Origin: Triparma columacea
Lineage: Eukaryota > Sar > Bolidophyceae > Parmales > Triparmaceae
Direction: 5' to 3'
DNA length: 15,333 nt
NCBI GenBank assembly: GCA_030267965.1
Contig: BRYA01000549.1
Location: 1 to 15,333, forward strand
Positions 3,282 through 15,333 of the stretch are shown in pieces (within the stretch, counting starts at the first letter, position 1; every line of letters begins with the position of its first letter). The notes below the pieces were generated by a model. It had not been told where the DNA came from. It saw only the letters and a program-made list of their open reading frames with translations, and did not search any database. The position numbers were made by a program, and so were the translations under genes.

Positions 3282-4025
3282 ATGAAGGAGGATAGAGAGG
3301 ATACAACGAACGTTAATGAAAATAGAGTAGGAATCAAAGATTTTATGCCTGTGACCATGGCGGAGGGGGTAAGCAAAGTCAGCAGGAGGATCATGTTGGG
3401 GGGCCTTTTGGGGGCAGTGGGGGGAGCAGGGTTAGCAGTATATAGGGGGGGAGTGGTGGGGGCATATGCTGGGAATATGGCGGGGAGGTAAGTCGGTGAG
3501 CGAAGCGAACCGCTGAAGGGGTTTGGGGTGGGGGTGTGGGAGGGAGGGAGGGGAGTTGTTGTACGTCGTGGAGGCGGAGACACGCGAATGGCTGCTACAA
3601 GAAACCTAACCCCCCCCCCTCCCAGCTTTGCAGTCACAGCCTGCGCCATTTACGTCCCCGAGAGGTTCTACAACTTCGCGTCCAGGAGTTTCTCCAAGCC
3701 CCCCCTCGTCGACGACATATACACCAGGGCAGGGGAACACGACATCTTCCCATCCCACGTTTTCGGCGGAGCAGTAGGGGGAGGCATCATGGGATCGCTT
3801 TTTAGAGCCTCAGTGGCGGGGGGAGGGATTCCAGGAGCAGTCATGATGGGCATCGGAGGGATGGGACTAGGGATGGCCGAGAAGACTTTCATAGAGTGGA
3901 AGGAAGAAGAGAGGAACAGGAGGGAGATGGAGTACGGGGGAAGGGACGGGGACGGGGGGGAAGACAGAGGATGGGGAGGAGACCAGAGAGGAAGGAAACA
4001 TTATGACCCCAAGAGCTATAGATGA
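3282..4025 (+). CDS. Gly-rich multi-span membrane protein, Tim17/22/23-like (tentative), two exons
   Basis: Exons 3282-3487 and 3626-4025 give 606 nt, 201 residues. The intron (3488-3625) has donor GTAAGT, a CTAAC branch motif and a C-rich tract ending in CCCAG. The AG|C junction restores a Ser codon and joins NMAG to SFAVTACAIYVPERF in frame. The protein has Gly-rich hydrophobic segments at about 35-70 and 115-150, with GxxxG-like spacing (MLGGLLGAVGGAGLAVYRGG; HVFGGAVGGGIMGSLFR; GIGGMGLGMAEK). This recalls the PRAT/Tim17-Tim22-Tim23 superfamily of mitochondrial and plastid inner membranes, but I do not see the complete PRAT motif, so the family is uncertain. The C-terminal 45 residues are charged (KEEERNRREMEYGGRDGD). 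TGA is followed at once by TAA. The gene model is better supported than the family. Confidence 0.65.
3494..3512. repeat. CGGT/ACCG-armed GAGCGAAGCGA hairpin in the intron
   Basis: The core at 3498-3508 has arms CGGT (3494-3497) and ACCG (3509-3512). It starts 6 bp after the donor G of the membrane-protein gene. The arms differ from those in DGAT2 yet are still complementary. Confidence 0.85.
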
Positions 4026-4195
4026 TAAACAAAAAAGTTTTATTTGAATTCAGAAGTATACAGATAGTTGTCTTGCCAGCAAAAAAAAGGCGGAATGAGC
4101 GGTCTCCCAACACCAAATATATTTTCTTTACTGGCTCCAATCGCTCTCAAACTTTGCCGGCGTGCTCCTCTCGGCTTGGGGTTGCGACGCTGGGC

Positions 4196-4204
4196 AAAAA
4201 AAAA
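4196..4204 (-). terminator. RNA polymerase III terminator
   Basis: A run of nine T on the minus strand starts four bases after the last encoded tRNA base, as expected for Pol III termination. Confidence 0.85.
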
Positions 4205-4244
4205 CGTTTGCCCCCTGGCAGGATCGAACTGCCGACTTCCGGAT

Positions 4245-4281
4245 CGCGCAACACATGTGTTGTGGGAAGTATAATTTCGAA
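4245..4281 (-). other. tRNA intron 2, canonical position 37/38 (37 nt)
   Basis: It lies directly 3' of anticodon-loop base A37, the usual eukaryotic tRNA intron site. It contains the palindrome ACACATGTGT, which includes ATG, complementary to the CAT anticodon. Confidence 0.82.
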
Positions 4282-4294
4282 TATGAGACCGACG

Positions 4295-4374
4295 CTATAA
4301 TTTTCGGGTGGGGGTGGGAATGGATGGGTAAGACGTTGGCGTGCATCAAACATGTAGCGATCGAAAACGCGTAC
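4295..4374 (-). other. tRNA intron 1, ectopic in the D-stem (80 nt)
   Basis: It is inserted between G24 and C25. It begins GTACGCG and ends TTATAG, so it has GT...AG termini, although the border can slide by two bases because exon and intron both end in AG. CGCTA inside the intron (4353-4357) is complementary to TAGCG spanning the 3' junction (4293-4297), a pairing that could help form a splicing-endonuclease substrate. Confidence 0.78.
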
Positions 4375-4398
4375 CTCTACCAACTGAGCTAAAGGGGC

Positions 4399-4615
4399 CA
4401 TTAATAAGAAATTTTGATTTTTTAGTACGATTTCAATACTTCCCTTTTCATTGTGGTGTGTGTTGTGGACGCTTTTGGTCACTTTTGGTTTGGAGCTCCA
4501 ATATTAGCACCTAACGTTTGGGTTTTCTACCCTAAGTACTTCAAAGCTTTTCACTAAAAGTTTAGCGTCCTAATTTGCCGCTATAAACTTACATTCGGGA
4601 TAGGTTCACTCAAAA
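4399..4615. other. Intergenic, no gene seen
   Basis: AT-rich sequence upstream of the tRNA. I see no ORF, repeat or RNA signal that I can support. Confidence 0.5.
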
Positions 4616-5085
4616 ATGGAATCACGATCAGAGGTACAATCGGTACACAATTCATCAGAGACCACATGTGGCAGTATCTAGTTGGGACGATTTGACAGAC
4701 GGTCAGCAGTTGTGCTTGAAGTGGGCCGAAGGCCAAGACTGGGATCGCATCAAGGGGTACGCCAAAGAACATGGTCCTGAGGTGTTGTTAGGCGTTCATA
4801 CAAAGCATGGTGATAGGAAATGGGACGTATGGTCAGTGAGGGAGTGTCAGGTCAAGCACTGGAGGGAGCACAGGGTGCAATGCAGGGGACCCGCTGAACG
4901 AAAGGGGGGAGAGTGAGGCAATGGTCAAGAAAAGATCAAAGACATGGAAGGGGATTAAGGGGGGAGGAGCGGATGTGGGAGTAGCGGATGTGGGAGTAGC
5001 GGAAGGAGCAGGTGCGACGGGGAACAATGGCAAGAATGGCAAGAAGGGGAAGAAGGGCAAGAATAGTAGGGGTAAGAAGAAGTGA
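4616..5085 (+). pseudogene. Decayed MYND-zinc-finger-like gene
   Basis: Three reading-frame pieces abut. ATG 4616 gives MESRSEVQSV...TTCGSI and stops. A second frame (about 4668-4916) encodes a segment ending VRECQVKHWREHRVQC, the hallmark second half of a MYND finger (CQ..HW..H...C). A third frame continues to 5085 with a Lys/Gly-rich basic tail that includes ATG 4921. The upstream MYND ligands look replaced: the pattern reads H-x2-H-G-x3-W-x2-W where Cys pairs are expected. No GT-AG intron restores the frame. Lost ligands and frame breaks suggest a pseudogene; a short expressed ORF cannot be excluded. MYND domains mediate protein-protein contacts. Confidence 0.5.
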
Positions 5086-5154: not shown

Positions 5155-5387
5155 TTTTTAGCGAGTAGCGTGAGAATGAACAATTTCACATTTAATTTCT
5201 CCAACATTTTGTTCCCTTTAGACTCATTCCATTCCAGGCCTTTCTTTCTCAGAATTATTATCGACTTTTTGTTTATTCCTTCTTCACGGGTTTTTGGAGA
5301 TATCGAGTGCGATTGAAGATTGGTGTTAGGTCACTCTCACACAGGAAAGTAAAGTGTCAATCTACTACAGCTTGTTGTTGGGTTGTG
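5155..5387. other. Intergenic, no gene seen
   Basis: T-rich sequence with no coding or repeat signal that I can support. Confidence 0.5.
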
Positions 5388-5523
5388 TTTGTTCCTCAGT
5401 ATGGTCGTTTGGCAGCCATTTACCCCTTACTGGCGTTGAATCATAGCGCGTGTCTCCGAAATGCACGTCGCATATCATATGTAAAGTTGAGTTGTGGTAT
5501 ATTTACATCCTTGGAACAAACAA
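5388..5523. repeat. Direct duplication, copy 1
   Basis: It matches 5688-5823 at an offset of 300 bp over most of its length, with shared blocks such as gtttgttcctcagtatggtc and gcgcgtgtctccgaaatgca. Read on the minus strand, one frame gives ICDVHFGDTRYDSTPVRGKW then LPNDHTEEQ. The family is not recognised. Confidence 0.85.
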
Positions 5524-5687
5524 CATTCTCATCTCATCCTTGTCCCCAGCTTACTAAAACTTACCTGAATCATCGCAAGAGCGGTAGTTGAAAAGCAAGT
5601 GTTGGGGCGCGCGAGCAGACGTGTGTTAGACAGCTTGAAATGTATCCTTCCAGCCCGTGTTTGTGTTTGCTGTTGATTTTGTTGTTG

Positions 5688-5823
5688 TTTGTTCCTCAGT
5701 ATGGTCGTTTGGCAGCCATTTTGTCATTGCTGGCGTTAAATCATAGCGCGTGTCTCCGAAATGCACGTCGCATATCATATTATGGAATTCTTGTGGTATA
5801 TTTACATCAGCGGAACAAACAAG
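5688..5823. repeat. Direct duplication, copy 2
   Basis: The counterpart of 5388-5523. On the minus strand the same frame reads ICDVHFGDTRYDLTPAMTKW then LPNDHTEEQT, in an 87-codon ORF (5889-5626) without a recognisable family. A relative one-base frame change near 5480/5780 separates the copies, suggesting that they are decayed remnants of a duplicated or transposon-borne coding segment. Confidence 0.85.
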
Positions 5824-6549: not shown

Positions 6550-9500
6550 TCACTTCCTTCCTCCCTTCCCTTCGCGCTTATTACCACCCCCCCCTCCTCC
6601 TCCTCCGCCTCCGCCTCCCCCACCCCCCCCACCCCCTCCCATCATCACCGCCTTGCAAACTTCCACCAAGTACCTACAGGCGTCCCCCACCGCCTCCTTA
6701 TCCCCCTCCGTCAGCCCCCTCTCCCCCTTCTCCATAAAGGCCAGAAAACAGTCGTTCAACCTAATCCTCATTTGCTTCAGGGCCACTCCCACCTCCACCG
6801 TTGTCTTGAAGACGATCCACTCGTCAATGCTCACCAGCACCTTCCCCGCATTCATCTGCCTGTACAACTCCTCCCCCCCCTCCTCCTCCCGGAACACCAT
6901 TTCCTTCACATCCAGGCTCTTCCCGCACAACAACAGGATGGGTATGACGCTCCAGACTCTACTGGTGTTCCTCATGGAGAATCCGTTTGGCTGCTTCACG
7001 ACCTCCCCGTAGAGCACGTACTCCACCCCCCCAACATCTGCTAGGCCGCACTTCTGGGAGAGGGGCTGTCCTCTCAGGGAGTTGACGGAGCTCAAGTGAA
7101 TCTTGCACTTTCTGTTCAACGCGGTGGAGAAGTTCATCTCCCCTCCTTGCCTCATGACGACGTTGGGGTATAGGCCGGCGATGAGGCTCGACAAGATGAG
7201 GCCCTCCCCGAACTGCCCCTCGCTCCTCATCCACGACCCGTCCTTCTGCAGGTCTCCCATCCCCATCCCCACAAGTTCCCTCGCAACGTTCCTCCTAAGA
7301 TCGGATATCATCCCCATGGTATTGTTTGACAAGAAGTAGTCGTTGCAGAACCTAAACGACCCCCCCGCGCCCCTCCGACGCGATTGGTCGTAGCCATTCA
7401 GCGCGTTCAGGAACGTCAGGAAATCAGACTGCGACCCCTTTGACATGGCAACTTTTGCCCCATCCGCCTGCTGCCTGGGGTTGCGGGTTGCGAATAAGGG
7501 TTGAGGATGAGGATAAGGGTGAGATCGATGACGTGAATCGCTTCGTCCAGGATTACTAACACAGCCAATTCGCTTCGTCCAGGATTACTAACACAGCCCT
7601 CTCTGCGGCTCGCTTCGCTCGGCCACAGCCCTCTCCGCGGCTCGCTTCGCTCGCCGTCGCTTCGCTCGCCGTCGCTTCGCTCGCCGCACCTCTGGTGCTT
7701 CCTGGGTAGCACGAACGGATCCTTGGTGCTCGTCGCGACCGCAATCGCGGCTGCACTCCTTCCCACCCCAAACAGAATCCCGAACATTAGCGCCTTCCCC
7801 AACCTCGGCGCCACGCTAAGTCCGCTCAGTTTCCACCCCAAGTCTGTGAGGGCATTCGTCTCGTCGTCCATCGCTCCAATCTCGACAAGGAGCCCAACCG
7901 CGTTCTTCAGGGCGAGGGGGTGGGGGGCGTCGATGGCCTTGTTCATGAGGGCCGGGATGCCGTCGAAATCATCGTAACCCCCGTTTGCGAGGCCAAGCCT
8001 CTTGGCCAACAAGCAGAGCTCCTCCAAGGGCGTCCTCAACAATTCCGAGTCAAGGAAAGGCCTCAGGCTAGCGTGCCTCCGCTTGCTCATTAGATGAAAG
8101 GCGACTCCGGCCTTGGTTCTCCCAGCCCTTCCCTGCCTCTGCCTGACAGATGCCTGCGAAATCCACTCTGTCGTCAGGGTGCTCGTCCCCAAATGTGGGT
8201 CGTACCCCTTCTCCTTCGCCTTCCCGCTATCGATGACGAAAGCGACGTCGTCGATGGTGATACTTGTCTCTGCTATGTTCGTCGCGAGGACAATCTTCCT
8301 GACACCCTTGGGCATCTTGGAAAACACCATCTTCTGCTCGTTCGTAGGGATTCCTCCGTGGAGCTGCATGATCCTAAACTTGCTAGTGTTCGAGAAGGGA
8401 CTCGTGCTATCCAGCATTTGCCCGAGGACACTAATGTCGTGCCACCCGGGAAGAAAAATGAGGACTGCGCCGTCCCCGTAGCTGCTGGAATCGATGTAGG
8501 AGAGGAGACTTACGATGAGGTCGTGGTCCACCTGGAGGAGCGGAGCGGGAGGAGCGAAGCGGGAGGAGCGCAGCGACGACCGTAGGAGGTTAGGTTAACT
8601 GCTATTAGGTTAACTGCTGTTGAACTTTCAAAATGTAATCAGCTTGCAACAATTGGCAACAATGCTTTCAACAGGTATCCCCGTTATCACTAATCAATCA
8701 ATCAACTCGCATTTTCCTCAACCACCTCTTGCAGCTCGCTTCGCTCACTGCACTCGCTTCGCTCACTGCACTCGCTTCGCTCGCTGCACTCGCTTCGCTC
8801 GCTGCACTCGCTTCGCTCGCTGCTCACCTCCTCGTCGTTGAAGGTCGACTGGTACTGTTCCAAAAGGGTCTCATCCAAAACCGTCACATCCTTAACCTGC
8901 CCGAACTCACTAACCCCGTCCCACTTCTGGGTATTCTCCGCGTCCTCGTCGTCCTCGTCATCTATTTCATACTCTTCCTCCTCCTCATCGTACTCCTCGT
9001 ACTCCTCAAAGTCTTCCTCCCCCCCCCCCCCCCCACCCCCCCCTCCCACCCCCTGCGGCACGATCTGGCAGGTCTTGAGCCTCTCCTCCATCGTCTCAAA
9101 GTCCTCCCCCCCTCCCATGCACTCCCCCATGTGGTTCCCCAGCTCCTCCGCTAGCATGAATCCCCCCCTCCCGCACATTACGCAGCTAAGGCCCTTATTC
9201 CCGTCCAAACCCCTCTTGGTGAGCTCGTCCGCCACCCTGTCCTTTTCCTTCTCGAAGGAGCCCAAGTACTCTGTCATCCTTAAGACGTCCTCGAGGTAGA
9301 ACTTCTGGATAGGGAACGTTCTCCCCGGAATCTCCACAACCCCAACGTCCATGAAGTAGTCTGTGAGCACGTCCGTATTCAGCGTGGCGCTCATGAGCAC
9401 GATTTTGATCTTGCACTTCCTCGCCACCATTTCCTTGAGCGCAATCAAGATGAAGTCCGTGAAGACCTCCCTCTCGTGGACCTCGTCGACAAGGATATGG

Positions 9501-14560: not shown

Positions 14561-15333
14561 ATGAAGTCACTAGTCGCTTTGTTAGCTGCTTCGCTGCTAG
14601 TTTTGGTACTCCTCGTCATCACTAGCCACGGGACTGACAAATCGTTGAGATTCCCTTCAAGAGGCCTACAGGACTTTGCCTTTGGCGGTAATGACATCGA
14701 CAACATTATCTTTGCTAACGGCAAGAAGAGCAACAAGGGCGACAAGGGCAACAAGGGCAACAAGGGCAACAAGGGCAACAAGGGGAAGAAGGGCAACAAG
14801 GGCAACAAGGGCAACAAGGGCAACAAGGGCAACAAGGGCAACAAGGGCAACAAGGGCAACAAGGGCAACAAGGGCAACAAGGGCAACAAGGGCAACAAGG
14901 GCAACAAGGGCAACAAGGGCAAGAAGGGCAAGAAGGGCAACAAGGGCAACAAGGGCAACAAGGGCACAACTCCGCAGCCAACTGAGAGCAAAACGCCTGC
15001 ACCAACTCCTGCGCCCAAACCCGGGCCTACTATCACGCCGTTGAAAGACGGCAACAGCACCACCGCCGGCACCATGTTCTGGGCCATGTCAACGTGGTGC
15101 GCCAGCCCTGCAATGTGGAACAACAATCACGCTGCAACCTACGGAACGATCGACAAATGGGATACCGCTAAGGTAACAAGCATGAGAGAGCTGGTTAACA
15201 AGTACTGTGGAAGTGGAGGGAATGTTACACAAGTGACGACGACGACGTTCAATGCCGATATCAGTTATTGGAACACCGGGAGTGTTGAAGATATGGCATC
15301 TATGTTTAGGGAAACGTTCTCTTTTAACCGACC
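14561..15333 (+). CDS. Secreted DUF285 (BspA-like) protein with collagen-like GNK repeat, 5' part
   Basis: The frame is open from ATG 14561 to the window end (257 codons seen), so the gene is incomplete at its 3' side. Residues 1-24 are a clear signal peptide (KSLVALLAASLLVLVLLVI). Residues 54-134 are 27 tripeptides, mostly Gly-Asn-Lys, formally collagen-type Gly-X-Y but without proline. A Pro/Thr-rich linker follows (PAPTPAPKPGPT). From about 165 the DUF285 domain starts: WDTAKVTSMRELVNKYC and FNADISYWNTGSVEDMASMF. DUF285 repeats are typical of surface proteins. The strongly basic repeat could bind acidic polysaccharide or silica-like polyanions (inference). It is in the same family as the 161-461 fragment; the other frames across the repeat are shadows. 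Confidence 0.88.
   Translation, partial: MKSLVALLAASLLVLVLLVITSHGTDKSLRFPSRGLQDFAFGGNDIDNIIFANGKKSNKGDKGNKGNKGNKGNKGKKGNKGNKGNKGNKGNKGNKGNKGNKGNKGNKGNKGNKGNKGNKGKKGKKGNKGNKGNKGTTPQPTESKTPAPTPAPKPGPTITPLKDGNSTTAGTMFWAMSTWCASPAMWNNNHAATYGTIDKWDTAKVTSMRELVNKYCGSGGNVTQVTTTTFNADISYWNTGSVEDMASMFRETFSFNR
14720..14962 (+). repeat. 9-bp coding minisatellite, 27 units (Gly-Asn-Lys)
   Basis: GGCAACAAG is repeated 27 times in frame with few changes (for example AGCAACAAG, GGCGACAAG and GGCAAGAAG units). The near-identity suggests recent expansion and probable length variation between strains. Confidence 0.93.

Follow-up and report, generated by a model that had tools for sequence, protein, structure and literature searches.

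Probable spliceosomal introns in tRNA genes of an ochrophyte genome, including one in the D-stem of a tRNA-Met gene

Introners are known in protein genes. They are mobile spliceosomal introns, as described in excerpts of PMC11782384, and the U6 gene of fission yeast has an mRNA-type intron that is thought to stem from reverse splicing (excerpts of PMC10484740). The splicing of tRNA is described as independent of the spliceosome (excerpts of a 2026 review, PMC13149111). A search of the open-access literature, including excerpts of PMC10328945, PMC3978253, PMC13149111, PMC11782384 and PMC10484740, brought up no account of nuclear tRNA genes with spliceosomal introns, and the word 'intron' is absent from the main text of the Parmales genome paper.

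The locus described here is a tRNA-Met(CAT) gene of Triparma columacea. It lies in a stretch of 15,333 nt, hereafter the window, which is contig C485 of the genome that was searched throughout (37.85 Mb, 789 contigs). A sequence-only reading of the window had supposed a stramenopile nuclear gene, and matches of CCT-epsilon bear this out: the genome is very probably an ochrophyte nuclear genome. Among the best 120 of 284 matches, identity reaches 75–79% for named ochrophytes and 57–66% for named animals; the named relatives are diatoms, brown algae, an Ochromonadaceae and a pelagophyte, and two JGI proteins stand at 88–89%. A weak Triparma match (33%) had pointed to Parmales, but the CCT-epsilon matches carry the assignment to ochrophytes only.

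The same reading had proposed two introns, one of them in the D-stem, whose removal (80 nt, 4374-4295, and 37 nt, 4281-4245) leaves an elongator tRNA-Met of 73 nt. ARAGORN agrees: the joined exons (4398-4375, 4294-4282 and 4244-4209, minus strand) form a 73-nt molecule of elongator type that is returned as tRNA-Met(CAT) with a score of 114.9. The features of the locus are as follows.

4416..4425, minus strand: upstream element CTAAAAAATC (mostly GCAAAAAATC elsewhere), beginning 27 nt ahead of the gene
4209..4398, minus strand: tRNA-Met(CAT) gene, elongator type, with two introns; 73-nt cloverleaf by ARAGORN and sole result of blind removal
4375..4398, minus strand: exon 1, tRNA nt 1-24
4295..4374, minus strand: intron 1 of spliceosomal type, 80 nt with GT..AG ends, following nt 24 in the D-stem (GTACGC...CTTAC...TATAG)
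4369..4374, minus strand: 5′ splice site GTACGC of intron 1, a weaker variant, with C at +4 in 4 of 31 introns
4328..4332, minus strand: branch-like CTTAC of intron 1, A at 4329, 34 nt ahead of the intron end
4282..4294, minus strand: exon 2, nt 25-37, holding the anticodon CAT
4245..4281, minus strand: intron 2, 37 nt, at the canonical 37/38 position, not GT-AG; ARAGORN i(38,37) after removal of intron 1
4209..4244, minus strand: exon 3, nt 38-73
4196..4204, minus strand: run of nine T from +5 past the tRNA, probable Pol III terminator
4135..4195, minus strand: conserved downstream element, common to 19 other tRNA genes, with its core 15-mer at 4144-4158
L017-L024, L026-L029, L031-L035, L037 and L038: the 19 other tRNA genes with the downstream element

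Across the window ARAGORN at its default settings finds no tRNA and Rfam finds none at gathering score; at E≤10 over 3900-4700 Rfam lists a plastid ycf2 leader and SNORD50 only, both far under threshold. With long introns allowed, ARAGORN reads the unspliced locus as a tRNA-Arg with a 110-nt intron; with the 80-nt intron alone taken out and introns allowed, it returns tRNA-Met with an intron of 37 nt, i(38,37). Genes of this kind may escape standard tRNA finders on account of their GT-AG introns, as happens in the window. As a control for chance, each GT[AG]..AG segment of 55–82 nt was removed on both strands of the window and the products were scanned with and without a short intron. Only one of the 1654 single-removal variants contained a junction-spanning tRNA, namely that lacking 4374-4295, and the reversed window gave none in 1987. 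The boundary of this D-stem intron slides by one base (4374-4295 or 4375-4296), with GT..AG in the first register only, and its site is the nucleotide position of a GT-AG intron in tRNA-Lys(TTT) (L022). Folding of the entire precursor was uninformative (z −0.28).

Other features of the window lie outside the tRNA gene. Tandem units resembling GCGAGCGAAGCGAG occur at 1103-1156, 1187-1245, 1329-1383, 8534-8575 and 8730-8823; such units are also seen inside apparent protein-gene introns and are possibly an intron-associated repeat family. A direct repeat of 95 bp, 94% identical and 300 bp apart, occupies 5386-5480 and 5686-5780, with a further pair at 5492-5523 and 5791-5822, and a predicted protein at 14561-15331 (plus strand) has a GNK repeat of collagen-like character, made up of 27 units of 9 bp, and after it a DUF285 region.

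The tRNA-Met gene has company: 17 tRNA genes found in the window's own genome carry 31 GT-AG introns, distributed from the acceptor stem to the T arm. One part of the sample comprises 20 tRNA genes chosen by the downstream element, independently of introns; 12 of these contain GT-AG introns and eight do not, and all 17 of their introns away from 37/38 are GT-AG. Phe(GAA) was found by a pattern of T-loop plus T run, and Glu(CTC), Arg(TCG), Gln(CTG) and Pro(TGG) were found through intron homology and contribute 12 of the 31 introns. Since tRNA-Val(AAC) has two copies (L034, L035) whose introns are almost the same, and both copies are counted, the number of independent introns is below 31. tRNA-Val(TAC) (L033), whose 37/38 boundary was misplaced in the cut (ARAGORN '???'), lacks GT-AG introns and stands outside the 31; three pattern-derived loci (L053, L057, L066) showed no tRNA by eye. 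The most extreme gene is Pro(TGG), where five GT-AG introns, one of them directly ahead of the anticodon, divide a product of 72 nt into exons of 17, 15, 8, 7, 8 and 17 nt.

Blind removal of single GT..AG segments at 48 loci gave 27 matches among 13,611 variants. Six intron-bearing genes (Arg CCT, Leu CAA, Leu TAG, Lys TTT, Trp and Gln TTG) account for 26 of them, and the remaining one lies where an intact tRNA-Lys ends or begins. Among 18,558 variants of the reversed loci there was one match.

Introners might have landed in dispensable tRNA copies that are never spliced, leaving the work to intact copies elsewhere, and the interrupted genes would then be pseudogenes. Some introns are indeed recent, to judge from pairs that are 93–98% identical, and the inventory is partial: of 675 candidates in the Rfam tRNA search 63 were scored, and the genes read include none for a number of isotypes, among them Ala, Asp, Asn, Cys, His, Tyr and initiator Met. 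ARAGORN nonetheless recognizes all 17 spliced forms as tRNAs with the expected anticodon, and all 17 have paired cloverleaves with a single mismatch in one acceptor stem: acceptor stems are paired at 7/7 in 16 genes and at 6/7 in Arg(TCT), and T stems at 5/5 in all (stem intactness was counted over 19 genes, intronless genes being left out). Among the genes read, those for Met, Trp, Phe, Glu and Gln all carry GT-AG introns. The comparison with other tRNA-Met genes that the sequence-only reading had proposed was carried as far as a first look with one candidate, in which the spliced tRNA-Met as query found the window gene only and no second elongator tRNA-Met. Together with the T runs behind the genes and the interrupted U6 gene described below, these observations make decay very improbable.

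In 19 genes 38 introns were cut, seven at or near 37/38 and 31 elsewhere. Every intron away from 37/38 has GT..AG ends (31/31, in 17 genes). The tRNA itself fixes the boundary in 15 of the 31, where no slide is possible; the others slide by 1–3 nt (0–3 nt overall) and the GT-AG register was taken. By uniform-base chance 31 of 31 would have a probability of ∼1e-68 if all were independent, which these introns are not. They are 58–80 nt long and lie at sites from nt 5 to nt 64; the donor is GTRAGT-like, with G at +5 in 31/31 and T at +6 in 25/31, and CTNAY is present in the searched branch region of 29/31, the two introns without it being related to each other. None of the 31 lies at the 37/38 site by nucleotide count; the one nearest to it follows nt 38 of Val(CAC), a tRNA of 72 nt in which the anticodon begins at nt 33. 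The seven introns at or near 37/38 are 11–37 nt long as cut and not of GT-AG type. The length of 58–80 nt does not fit a group I or group II intron, and the window has no Rfam match at gathering score; introns of these groups possess a catalytic core and usually run to hundreds of nucleotides.

These signals bear on the class of the D-stem intron, which the sequence-only reading had set beside the extra introns of archaea and Cyanidioschyzon. Introns of the archaeal, Cyanidioschyzon or nucleomorph kind would be ectopic introns cut by a tRNA endonuclease that recognizes a BHB or relaxed BHB. Algae offer a precedent, with introns outside 37/38, several per gene, and many of those in the Guillardia nucleomorph forming no defined BHB (excerpts of PMC3978253); introns near 37/38 in 7 of the 19 genes suggest that the present genome has an ordinary tRNA splicing system. 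A strict BHB (4-bp central helix, two 3-nt bulges) is formed by none of the 31 introns, but the shuffle mean is 1.4 and the seven 37/38 introns score 0/7 as well, so this result excludes the strict BHB only, carries little weight and is compatible with a relaxed enzyme. The case against an endonuclease lies elsewhere: the boundaries are fixed by sequence (GT..AG, G at +5, a branch-like site) whatever the local tRNA structure, one of the tRNA introns is homologous to an mRNA intron, and U6 has introns of the same kind. We consider this explanation very improbable. The extra intron stands, as first read; the comparison with the archaeal and Cyanidioschyzon class alone was incomplete, all 31 being GT..AG and one having a relative in mRNA.

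That relative is, judged from sequence, the strongest single piece of evidence for the spliceosomal nature of the introns. Intron 1 of tRNA-Trp matches an intron of a protein gene on contig C347 at 84% over 68 nt, or 86% over 70 nt when two exon bases are included. Removal of the C347 intron opens the frame across the entire stretch read (374 codons), and in two paralogues, 91% identical to the C347 gene, removal of the same intron opens frames of 173 and 172 codons; the relatives of Trp intron 1 in protein genes are L094, L099 and L100. The match spans the donor and the branch region, the 3′ ends differ, and the tRNA intron is shorter there. Because the match coincides with restored frames, sequence of this intron family is very probably removed from mRNA, from which we infer its removal from tRNA. 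Only Trp intron 1, and not the intron of the window, could be matched to a protein gene.

A broader comparison was made with 16 introns of chaperonin genes, whose splice sites were hand-picked from the in-frame GT-AG options. The tRNA introns are shorter (median 69 versus 126.5 nt). Both sets share GT, a prevailing A at +4 and G at +5, and they differ at +3 (A in 23/31 versus 3/16) and +6 (T in 25/31 versus 1/16). The branch motif CTNAY is common to both (29/31 versus 15/16), CTTAC being the usual form in tRNA introns (21/31 versus 4/16) and CTAAC in the mRNA introns (2/31 versus 11/16). These differences point to a special intron family or to modified recognition. The protein-gene relative of the Trp intron itself has the tRNA-like features GTGAGT and CTTACC, so that the differences look like those of a particular family of introns and not of another chemistry, although recognition may be modified.

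Some of the tRNA introns are also related to one another. Relatives of Leu(CAA) intron 1, which follows nt 5, stand behind nt 12 of Gln(CTG) (85% over 76 nt) and behind nt 17 of Pro(TGG) (84% over 49 nt); intron 1 of Gln(TTG), after nt 11, recurs as intron 2 of Gln(CTG) after nt 56 (86% over 59 nt), and intron 2 of Val(AAC) as intron 3 of Glu(CTC) (97% over 66 nt). Within Val(CAC) one intron matches the other at 93% over 59 nt, and intron 1 of Lys(TTT) shares 36 nt with intron 2 of Phe at 86%. Arg(TCG) and Arg(TCT) have an intron at the same site, 87.5% identical over 72 nt, as expected of inheritance. Alike introns at several unrelated sites, the mark of introners, are thus found among the tRNA introns; the window's intron 1 has no such relatives, being the sole match to itself in the genome.

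The genes share sequences outside the tRNA as well. The core 15-mer of the downstream element, GGCAAAGTTTGAGAG, gave 34 matches with at most one mismatch, versus two for the reversed pattern; 30 of the 34 were read, four having no locus, and nine further one-mismatch matches showed no tRNA. A longer 22-mer with up to three mismatches gave 21 sites versus one in the control, and 20 of the 21 lie behind a tRNA gene. The element directly follows the T run and consists of a GC-rich, possibly hairpin-forming part and then GAGAGGAGCAYGCTGGCAAAGTTTGAGAGTGATTGGAG. Within 90 nt, as far as read, the 15-mer with up to three mismatches is absent behind Phe(GAA), Glu(CTC), Arg(TCG), Gln(CTG) and Pro(TGG), and a 26-place pattern of the element has no match in viral contigs and none in genome contigs, a set from which near relatives were possibly left out. 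The upstream element, sought as four 7-mers within 60 nt (for Glu(CTC), within the 30 nt covered), stands 26–51 nt before the gene in 17 of the 18 genes read, the exception being Pro(TGG). It is possible that the downstream element is an external Pol III promoter or a 3′ element.

Several loci depart from this pattern. L025 (C208:1098-1112, minus strand) has the downstream element and a run of eight T, with no recognizable tRNA and no Rfam RNA at gathering score; it is perhaps an unknown Pol III RNA. Four identical tRNA-Arg(CCG) sequences (L005-L008, on C54, C501 and, twice, C670) have no adjacent T run or flanking elements and could represent a mobile repeat that resembles a tRNA, instead of true genes. 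The tRNA-Lys(CTT) genes L001 and L002 have a T run plus GC, followed by sequence unlike that of the other tRNA genes.

Conserved elements outside many of the genes could also mean that the introns are spliceosomal and the genes are transcribed by Pol II in the manner of snRNA genes, with an upstream element and a downstream element resembling a 3′ box; such transcription would explain access of the spliceosome. In keeping with this, 18 of the 31 introns interrupt nt 8–19 or 52–62, the usual places of the internal A and B boxes. The T runs speak otherwise. No run exceeds five T within any of the 19 pre-tRNAs, and seven to nine T follow each gene at +1 to +22, a pattern that is expected of Pol III and favors it over Pol II. 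Transcription by Pol II therefore appears improbable, although less so than cutting by a tRNA endonuclease.

A second class of gene is affected. The sole U6 match found in the genome (47 of 1886 candidates scored) is interrupted by two GT-AG introns. The second, GTGAGT..TTTTAG, splits GGATGACA/CGCAAA, which is contiguous in the Rfam consensus. The first, GTAAGT..ATTCTTACC..GTAG, was placed by its signals, and its removal restores a stem-loop at the 5′ end, closed by CUUCGG (−6.1 kcal/mol, z −3.0), that is absent from the unspliced sequence (z 0.0). U2 snRNA was not found by Rfam among the 46 of 356 candidates scored, and the U2 branch-recognition 19-mer, with up to three mismatches, gave four matches versus 17 in the control, none convincing. 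The U2 snRNA of this genome may be missing, divergent or itself interrupted.

Taken together, these data make it probable that the 80-nt insertion is a spliceosomal GT-AG intron in a Pol III tRNA gene, one of many that are removed by the spliceosome and have spread by copying. The sequence itself shows how the genes are built, that their splice sites are conserved, that one tRNA intron is homologous to an mRNA intron, that related introns occupy different sites in different tRNA genes, that U6 has introns of this kind and that many of the genes have conserved flanks; the polymerase, the cutting by the spliceosome, the sequence of steps, the way and direction of copying and a promoter function of the flanks are inferred from it. 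In the order of events that we envisage, Pol III would transcribe the tRNA gene, aided by flanking elements (upstream GCAAAAAATC and the downstream element), ending at the run of seven to nine T; the spliceosome would take out the GT-AG introns, the ordinary tRNA endonuclease the 37/38 intron, and the tRNA would then be matured. The question that the first reading had raised, namely which enzyme cuts the D-stem intron, would thus be answered by the spliceosome, the 37/38 intron being left to the usual endonuclease. The introns may have reached tRNA genes as copies of existing spliceosomal introns, by introner-like insertion or by reverse splicing.

A wider scenario is offered tentatively, as possible but falling somewhat short of probable. 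In this ochrophyte lineage Pol III genes may have come under external promoters, freeing the A and B boxes; a distinct, mobile family of short spliceosomal introns (GTAAGT, TTCTTACC, 58–80 nt) could then have invaded tRNA and U6 genes, making both tRNA supply and U6 dependent on the spliceosome, with recognition possibly tuned to Pol III transcripts.

If true, tRNA genes with up to five spliceosomal introns would break the division between tRNA splicing and the spliceosome, and exons of 7–8 nt would prove definable in a short RNA. The machine with which the cell splices its messengers would also make the adaptors for reading them, so that tRNA supply would depend on the spliceosome. The genes would moreover allow the gain of introns to be traced in nature at the level of single bases, the structure of the product fixing the boundaries.

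Like the U6 gene of fission yeast, these genes would have an mRNA-type intron in a Pol III transcript (excerpts of PMC10484740); in fission yeast a snRNA of the spliceosome is affected, whereas here tRNA genes are too, with 31 introns that number as many as five in one gene and occupy many positions. The ectopic and permuted tRNA genes of Cyanidioschyzon merolae and those of nucleomorphs are likewise algal, with introns outside 37/38 and sometimes several of them, but these are discussed as BHB-mediated (excerpts of PMC3978253), in contrast to the spliceosomal signals and mRNA-intron homology found here. Canonical eukaryotic 37/38 introns share some genes with GT-AG introns (those for Met, Trp, Phe, Glu(CTC) and Gln(CTG)) and differ from them in being 11–37 nt long, without GT-AG and confined to one site. 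Introners are likewise similar spliceosomal introns at different sites (excerpts of PMC11782384); the introns described here differ in that copies are few and the targets include Pol III genes.
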